Below, piece by piece: positions 26,320 to 29,290 of a DNA stretch of 64,000 bases. How positions within the stretch are numbered: the stretch's first letter is position 1; each line of letters begins with the position of its first letter. Source of the stretch: Bacillota bacterium (GTDB lineage Bacteria > Sysuimicrobiota > Sysuimicrobiia > Sysuimicrobiales > Segetimicrobiaceae); contig JAJPJL010000070.1 in NCBI GenBank assembly GCA_021324255.1, positions 1 to 64,000 of the forward strand. Reading direction: 5' to 3'. A program made the position numbers and the translations under genes. The notes beneath the pieces were generated by a model. That model had not been told where the DNA came from, searched no databases, and worked only from the letters and a program-made list of their open reading frames with translations.

Positions 26320-26688
26320 CTACCGCGGCAGCGCCAGCGCGCCGCCGGCGAGGAGCGCCGCACCGACCGCCGCCTGGATCGAAATGCGGCGCGCCCGGCG
26401 CCGCAGCTCCGTGCGCTCCGCCGGGTCCTCGATGCGCTCGATCGTGTCGACAAGGTTGCGCGCCCCGCGCGCAGCGAGCTGGATTCAGGTCGCCTCGCGC
26501 CACTGGAAGACGCCCAGGGCCGCGCCCCAGAACAGCGGCAGCAGCACGAGGCGCCACCAGCGATCGACCCCCGTCCCGACCAGGACCCCGAGCAGCGCGA
26601 GGCTCACGCCGAAGAGGGCGACGCCGATCGCGAGGCGCTTTCGCCGCTCGGCGGCGCCGATGTTGGTGAGGCAGGCCGCGCTGCTCAC
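26320..26688 (-). CDS. Small two-helix membrane protein with in-frame TGA
   Basis: GTG 26688 overlaps the pgi stop by 4 bases (GTGA). The frame reads 67 residues ([17 protein letters not shown], then two membrane segments including [20 protein letters not shown] and [15 protein letters not shown], ending QWREAT), meets TGA at 26487-26485, and continues 54 more residues to TAG at 26322-26320. The continuation begins [10 protein letters not shown] and looks like protein. From memory, homologues carry Cys at the TGA position (..TCVxLAARG), but I could not check this. A hairpin TGCGCGC-GGG-GCGCGCA follows the TGA with its loop 18 bases away. It may be a selenoprotein, a nonsense mutation or a sequence error. 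As ordinary translation it ends at 26485. Confidence 0.6.
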
Positions 26689-28322
26689 GAGGCGCTCGCG
26701 GGCCGGCTCCGGCGATACCATCGGATGAGCGCGTTCGTGGACCCATCGTGCGCCAGGACCGGATCGGGCGCGGCCAGCTCCGAGATGATCCGTGTGGCGA
26801 GCGCCTTGCCCAGCTCCACGCCCCATTGATCGAACGAATCGATCTGCCACACGACGCCCTGCACGAACACGCTGTGCTCATAGAGGGCGATGAGCTTGCC
26901 GAGCGTCTCCGGCGTGAGCTGCTCGGCGAGCAGCACCGTGGACGGCCGGTTGCCCGGACACACCCGATGGGGGACGAGCGCCGGCGGGGTGCCTTCCCGT
27001 GCGACCTCGCCGGCCGTCCGGCCAAACGCGAGGGCCTCCGCCTGCGCGATGAGGTTGGCCATGAGCAGGTCGCGGTGGGTCTCCAGGGGGTTCAGCGGCC
27101 GGGCGAAGCCGATGAGATCGCACGGGACCAGCTTGGTCCCCTGGTGGAGCAGCTGGTAGAACGAGTGCTGGCCGTTGGTCCCCGGCTCGCCCCAGTAGAT
27201 CGCGCCGGTGCCGTGCGTCACGGCCGTCCCATCGAGCCGGACCGACTTGCCGTTGCTTTCCATCGTCAGTTGCTGCAGGTAGGCGGGAAACCGATGGAGG
27301 TAGCGGTCGTAGGGCAGCACCGCCGCGGTCTGCGCCCCGAAGAAGTCGCCGTACCACACGGCGAGGAGCCCCATGAGGACCGGCAAGTTGCGCTCGAACG
27401 GCGCCGTCCGGAAGTGCTCGTCGATGGCATGAAACCCCGCGAGCATCTCGTGGAAGCGCTCCGGTCCGACGGCGATCATGGTCGAGAGGCCGATCGCGGA
27501 ATCCATGGAATACCGCCCGCCGACCCAATCCCAGAACCCGAACATGTTCTGCGGATCGATCCCGAACGCGGCCACCTCCCGGGCGTTTGTGGACACGGCC
27601 ACGAAATGCCGGGCGACGGCCCGCTCGTCCCCGAGCCGGGCGAGCAGCCAGGCGCGCGCGGCGCGGGCGTTCGTGAGGGTTTCGAGGGTGGTGAAGGTCT
27701 TGGAGGACACGATGACGAGCGTCTCCGCCGGGTCGAGATCCCGCGTCGCCTCGACGAGGTCGGTGGGGTCGATGTTCGACACAAACCGGAACGTCATGTC
27801 GCGCCGCGCGTACCAGCGCAGGGCCTCGTACGCCATCACCGGTCCGAGGTCCGAGCCGCCGATGCCGATGTTGATGACGTTGCGGATCGGCCGGCCGGTA
27901 TGCCCGCGCCACGCGCCGCCCCGCACACGCGCGGCGAAGTCCGCCATCCGGTCGAGCACGGCGTGCACGTCGGGGACGACGTTCCGGCCGTCGAGCACGA
28001 TCGATGCCCCGCGGGGCGCCCGCAGCGCCACGTGGAGCACGGCGCGCTGCTCGGTCGTGTTGATCTTGTCGCCGCGGAACATGGCCTCGATCCGCTCGCG
28101 CAGGCCGGACGCCGCGGCGAGCGCGCGCAGCAGCCGCAGGGTCTCGTCCATGACCCGGTGCTTGGAGTAGTCGAGGCGGAGGCCCGCGGCCTCGGCGACC
28201 ATGCGCTCGCCGCGCCCGGGATCCGCCGCGAAGAGGTCGCGGAGGTGCCGGGGCGCGACCAGCGCGTGGTGGGCGGCGAGCGCGTCCCAAGCCTGCCTGG
28301 TGGTTTCGCGGGCCGTCGCCAT
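26685..28322 (-). CDS. pgi: Glucose-6-phosphate isomerase
   Basis: A 545-residue cytosolic isomerase that interconverts glucose-6-phosphate and fructose-6-phosphate. Family blocks are all present: [96 protein letters not shown] and [13 protein letters not shown]. The catalytic Glu, His and Lys lie in the last three blocks. GGGAGGCGG precedes ATG 28322. The length is that of the long (E. coli-type) PGI. It is coupled by a 4-base overlap to the small membrane protein downstream. Confidence 0.97.
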
Positions 28323-28345
28323 CGACCGCCTCCCTGCCGCCGCGG

Positions 28346-29290
28346 TTACGCCGGCGGCGCGCCAAAGACGGCGAGCGGCACGAGCGCGCTCACGATGTAC
28401 TGGCCGGCGTCGACGATCTCCGAGATCTTGAGATCCACGCACAGGCTCGAGAGGAGATACGCGTCTTCGCGCGACAGGCGGTATGTGTCGCTCACGTGCG
28501 CCACCATCGCCCGCACGGCGTCCTGGGCCGCCTTGTAGAGGTCGGGGCCGACGCCGGTCGTTCCGTACCAGCCGCCGCGGTTGACGCGCGGCACGAGCGG
28601 CCCGGGTGTCACAAACTGCGGCGCCGGGAGCCGCCGGCCCTTTTGCAGGGTCAGCCGCAGCGCCGCGTACATCGGCGCCTCGATGCCGGTCACGCACACC
28701 TCGCCGTCGCCCTGCGCCGCGTGGGCGTCGCCGCAGCTAAAGAGCGCGCCCGGGACCTGCACCGGCAGATACAGCGTCGCGCCCCGCACGAGCTGCCGGG
28801 TGTCCATGTTGCCGCCGAACACGCCGGGCGGCATCACCGCTTGCCGCGAGGCGCCGGCCGGGCACACGCCCATCGTGCCGAAGAACGGCTCGATGGGGAC
28901 CGTGACGTCCTCGCGAAATCGCGCGACGCGGCCGTCCGAGAGGTCGAAGATCCGCAGGTACGGCGTCTTGAAGTCCTCCGGGAGCAGGCCCAAGCCTTCG
29001 AGGATGGCCGCCCAGCCCCAGCCTTCCGTGTGGATGTCGAGGATCTCCACGGCCAGCGTATCGCCGGGGCCCGCTCCGTTGACGAGGATCGGTCCGGCCA
29101 GCGGGTAGACGCGCTCCCAATCGAGGCTCGCGAGGTCCGCCGTGGTCGAGGACGGGGTCAGCTGATTGTCGCTGACATCGCGGGTCCGCACGACCACGGT
29201 GTCACCGCTGTCGACGGCGACCGCGGGCTGGTGTCGCACGTCCCACGTGAAATGCACCGCGTCATGCGGCACGTAATGGGTTCGCGCCAT
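28346..29290 (-). CDS. Acetamidase/formamidase
   Basis: A 314-residue FmdA_AmdA family amidase that releases ammonia from short amides. Blocks seen are [69 protein letters not shown] and the C-terminal [18 protein letters not shown] 29290 is chosen: AAGGAGGGG sits seven bases before it, while an in-frame GTG six bases upstream would lie against the SD. It is downstream of the M81 peptidase gene and 23 bases before pgi. Neighbouring agmatinase and amidases suggest nitrogen scavenging. Confidence 0.93.

Follow-up and report, generated by a model that had tools for sequence, protein, structure and literature searches.

The window analysed here, a stretch of 64,000 nucleotides from the Bacillota bacterium contig JAJPJL010000070.1, carries on its minus strand a short gene whose reading frame contains a single TGA codon (Table 1). 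A sequence-only reading of this DNA had described the start of the gene as overlapping the end of pgi in a GTGA motif, and this overlap was confirmed in the sequence. The stop codon of pgi is itself a TGA, and it has no SECIS-like hairpin at the equivalent spacing. The downstream gene is an agmatinase/arginase-like ORF. The frameshift that had been reported about 340 bases away is real, but it lies within this next gene: two base pairs are deleted at approximately 26140 (minus strand) relative to contig JAJPIA010000011.1, and the change may be either an error or a real mutation. The description of the short gene as coupled to pgi holds within the genus but does not extend to the family as a whole, in which we found no conserved neighbour genes, and the sharing of neighbours was limited to close relatives. 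The proximity of pgi is therefore probably incidental, and a function based on the operon was rejected because the gene neighbours are common to close relatives only.

Table 1. Features at the locus of the TGA-containing gene (positions are those of the window).
Feature	Position	Strand	Details and basis
Predicted selenoprotein gene, 122 aa	26320..26688	minus	GTG start to TAG stop, single in-frame TGA; translation and homologues across the TGA in 62 genomes
TGA codon 68, very probably read as selenocysteine	26485..26487	minus	Sec/Cys codons of 67 members share one alignment column
Putative bacterial SECIS stem-loop	26457..26473	minus	7 bp stem TGCGCGC/GCGCGCA; loop GGG at 26466-26464
GTG start, GTGA overlap with pgi stop codon	26686..26688	minus	Sequence
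Possible alternative start, upstream in-frame ATG inside pgi	26721-26719	minus	Sequence
pgi (glucose-6-phosphate isomerase) ORF, upstream	26685..28697	minus	True start somewhere within this range
TAG stop of the predicted selenoprotein gene	26322-26320	minus	Translation

In a first search, the frame with one TGA recurred within the genus (81% identity, contig JAJPIA010000011.1), within the family (53%) and in another phylum (37%), and profiles built from the members found in this way were used to reach further homologues. The relatives include Bacillota bacterium Centralia_MAG_233. The final set comprised 67 members and left out a degenerate fragment with three TGAs from genome G885. The codon in the column of the window's TGA was TGA in 62 members, TGC in four and TGT in one, and no other codon occurred there. 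The members were found in the window's own group and in the phyla of four further genomes (G139, G103, G126 and G051); as these phyla are listed separately and have no rank below the domain in common with the window's genome, at least five phyla are represented. The homologues continue through the TGA position, and those without TGA have Cys in exactly that column (five members), in agreement with the Cys that the sequence-only reading had expected in relatives. In the excluded partial homologue (locus L126), a TGA at the Sec column is accompanied by two TGAs at positions where Trp and Arg are expected, and these extra codons may reflect a pseudogene, errors or a changed code.

The segment behind the TGA had been judged to be protein-like, and its conservation indeed equals that of the segment before it. 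Relative to the genus relative, amino acid identity was 81% before the TGA and 83% after it, and dN/dS was approximately 0.35 and 0.39, respectively; purifying selection is alike on both sides of the codon. The near-invariant positions across the family are N9, R18, G59, Q62, T67, the Sec/Cys column, L71, G75 and R77, and the tail after the TGA is nearly constant in length.

The genome, which is 94.9% complete, contains the full set of genes for selenocysteine decoding (selA, selB, tRNA-Sec and selD). The tRNA-Sec (Rfam RF01852, 74 bits; ARAGORN anticodon tca), selA and selB are clustered within approximately 5 kb on one contig. The selD gene at G000:C92:36492-37412 (L127) also encodes a selenoprotein: its frame contains a TGA where Sec is usually found, within MVACAGUASK, in accordance with the UxxK motif given for selenophosphate synthetases that contain Sec (PMC13188914). 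Across the family, 28 TGA genomes were tested for selA, and 27 of them had it above the cut-off; because selA is frequent in genomes that lack the short gene as well, this association by itself is weak evidence. Genome G531 (locus L042) carries the TGA form with a good hairpin and has no detectable selA, and as its assembly consists of 440 contigs, the selA sequence is possibly missing.

We then compared the region behind the TGA with the model of the bacterial SECIS element, which specifies a stem of 4–16 bp, a loop of 3–9 nt with a G in the first two loop positions, a distance of 16–37 nt from the UGA, and a minimum free energy of at most −7.5 kcal/mol (PMC13188914 Fig 2A). The TGCGCGC-GGG-GCGCGCA stem noticed in the sequence-only reading fits this model in every respect: the 7-bp stem begins 11 nt past the TGA, the GGG loop lies 18 nt past it, and the 45-nt fold has an energy of −12.2 kcal/mol. 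In this GC-rich window, a hairpin of equal or greater strength at the same spacing was present at only 2 of 1,257 TGA trinucleotides, and the best hairpin at the gene calls ending in TGA was weak (−3.8 kcal/mol). A hairpin with a G-bearing loop 17–19 nt from the UGA occurred in all 62 TGA genes. The hairpin alone reaches −7.5 kcal/mol in 43 of these genes and is weak (approximately −3 kcal/mol) in the most AT-rich members. Synonymous recodings of the same peptides yielded some hairpin of this kind 48% of the time on average, and the native hairpin is stronger than such recoding predicts, with a median rank of 0.08 (0.03 for the window gene), a value that is not a probability because the family sequences are related. 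Both sides had changed in three of the six stem pairs, a count that was equalled or exceeded in 1 of 500 column shuffles, and compensatory changes occur, as in TCTCGC-GGTCT-GCGAGA. However, the stem occurs in two registers, a good score is also obtained when the register is moved by two columns, and the stem shares nucleotides with conserved codons (RGxR), so that the covariation is modest; it supports a stem structure rather than proving it.

The recoding of UGA by SelB at a stem-loop is an established mechanism. If it operates here, the stem-loop would recruit SelB together with Sec-tRNA(Sec), which this genome's own SelA, SelD and selC would supply, and the ribosome would read the UGA at codon 68 as selenocysteine; without selenium, a truncated protein of 67 residues would be made. 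Based on the sequence comparisons, we consider it very probable that this UGA is read as selenocysteine and that the product of the gene is a small selenoprotein integral to the membrane. This was the central proposal of the sequence-only reading, and the sel genes, the Cys homologues, the hairpin and the conserved TGA all agree with it.

The codon might instead be an ordinary stop, which would leave a two-helix product of 67 residues and an open frame arising from chance or decay, and TGA does terminate many of the gene calls in the window (23 of 52). Yet 52–61 downstream codons are conserved in 61 of the 62 genomes, always behind a TGA in one column, selection past the TGA equals selection ahead of it, and five homologues have a Cys codon there and an uninterrupted frame. 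The conserved column and the selection after the TGA refute an ordinary stop, and we regard it as extremely improbable. The next gene's frameshift of two base pairs, at a distance of approximately 345 bases, would be in keeping with a Cys or Trp codon misread in sequencing or assembly, or with a young pseudogene. Because the same TGA is present in 62 separate genomes, which represent at least five phyla and include that of the 81% identical relative (JAJPIA010000011.1), a sequencing error is excluded, and the conservation of the codon refutes this explanation as a whole, bringing its probability close to nil. Such conservation implies readthrough as such, whichever residue is inserted, so that Trp, Cys or Arg could be incorporated through a changed code or a near-cognate tRNA. 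Since TGA terminates pgi and further gene calls of the window, the code is not changed globally. Furthermore, the Sec machinery is complete, the residue exchanged with the TGA is always Cys, and a SECIS-like element accompanies every TGA gene and was lost in two of the five Cys genes (those of G377 and G597). Readthrough with another amino acid is consequently very unlikely.

Turning to the predicted selenoprotein itself, the family-averaged hydropathy showed three hydrophobic stretches, two ahead of the Sec and one at the C-terminus. The two membrane helices described earlier were thus recovered, but as part of a larger arrangement. The N-terminus is basic, as is a segment behind the Sec. These hydropathy and charge patterns suggest that the first two helices form a hairpin, that the Sec comes immediately after helix 2, and that a basic, amphipathic stretch and then a third hydrophobic helix follow. 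By the positive-inside rule, the basic segments would place the Sec at the cytoplasmic face of the membrane. An AlphaFold2 model built from two sequences had a pLDDT of 60 and was too poor for use.

A conserved Cys near the N-terminus had been proposed to stand beside the Sec. This did not hold for the family: the residue is present in 18 of the 67 members, for which reason it was rejected as a redox partner, and in 56 of the 67 members no further Cys follows residue 12. Most characterized selenoprotein families combine a thioredoxin-like fold with a redox motif, for example CxxU or UxxC. Here, in contrast, the Sec stands alone in the context T-U-[VI]-x-L-A-x-x-G at the membrane edge. The lone selenol may act at the membrane surface as a redox centre, reducing or sensing peroxides or other electrophiles, an assignment to which we give an even chance. 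As the family has no second conserved Cys, its regeneration would depend on a separate thiol system, and a reductase or sensor with one selenol would form a mixed selenylsulfide with an outside thiol, a step that is about equally likely to occur or not. The protein could just as well have another role, e.g., that of a subunit from which a partner receives sulfur, selenium or a metal. A lone Sec would be well suited to testing cleanly how a selenol acts at the surface of a membrane.

We also searched for the family among known proteins. No model in Pfam or in NCBIfam release 20 (June 2026) was above its cut-off for the window protein, and the scattered weak and unrelated NCBIfam hits included no selenoprotein model. 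A profile search of the PDB gave no match (best E-value, 9.4), nor did a plasmid search with one member. The weak Pfam hits (DUF6381, CwsA and others) were rejected, since they differed from member to member and, for the window protein, stayed below the cut-off. The YgaP-like transmembrane domain (PF11127) resembles the family in having a short two-helix hairpin followed by a Cys, and it gave weak Pfam hits for 5 of 32 members (best E-value, 0.03; the G003 member scored 13.0 bits, with the cut-off at 25.3). However, the family has a third hydrophobic stretch and no rhodanese domain, and homology to the YgaP transmembrane domain was rejected at an hhalign probability of 0.1%, obtained with the family profile against the single E. 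coli YgaP sequence.

The family is missing from the 119 prokaryotic selenoprotein families and subfamilies listed in 2026 (PMC13188914 Table 1), and no such family was found in titles and abstracts on selenoproteins with Gemmatimonadota or Rokubacteria. It resembles the catalogued selenoproteins in its UGA for Sec, the bSECIS element downstream, the existence of Cys homologues and its dependence on selABCD; for many of them NCBIfam holds the models cited in that table (PMC13188914), and no NCBIfam model matches the family above the cut-off. The hypothetical selenoproteins DG, DW and DF, which deep-Sep predicted from Sec/Cys pairs, likewise have no known domain (PMC12013277), but the corresponding models (NF049953, NF041197 and NF049942, cited in PMC13188914 Table 1) do not match the family. 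The protein family appears to be new, while its decoding system is known; an unnamed mention is possible, subscription papers being outside the literature search. Such genes are likely to have been annotated as a fragment of 67 residues or missed. The family would add to at least five phyla a selenoprotein that is integral to the membrane and not thioredoxin-like.

In the genomes found, Sec prevails over Cys by 62 to 5, and discovery pipelines based on Cys homologues would tend to overlook a family of this composition. The five Cys genes represent five separate changes on the tree, and these independent exchanges allow a direct test of what it costs to replace one residue with the other. The Cys forms may be secondary conversions. 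The combined reading, in which a widespread and uncatalogued family of membrane selenoproteins uses a lone Sec at the cytoplasmic face to reduce or sense a peroxide or electrophile and has given rise to these Cys forms secondarily, is in our estimation as probable as its negation. Two of the Cys genes, L034 (G676) and L047 (G571), retain a SECIS-like hairpin and occur in genomes that still have selA. They are apparently recent Sec-to-Cys conversions, after which a retained hairpin is to be expected.
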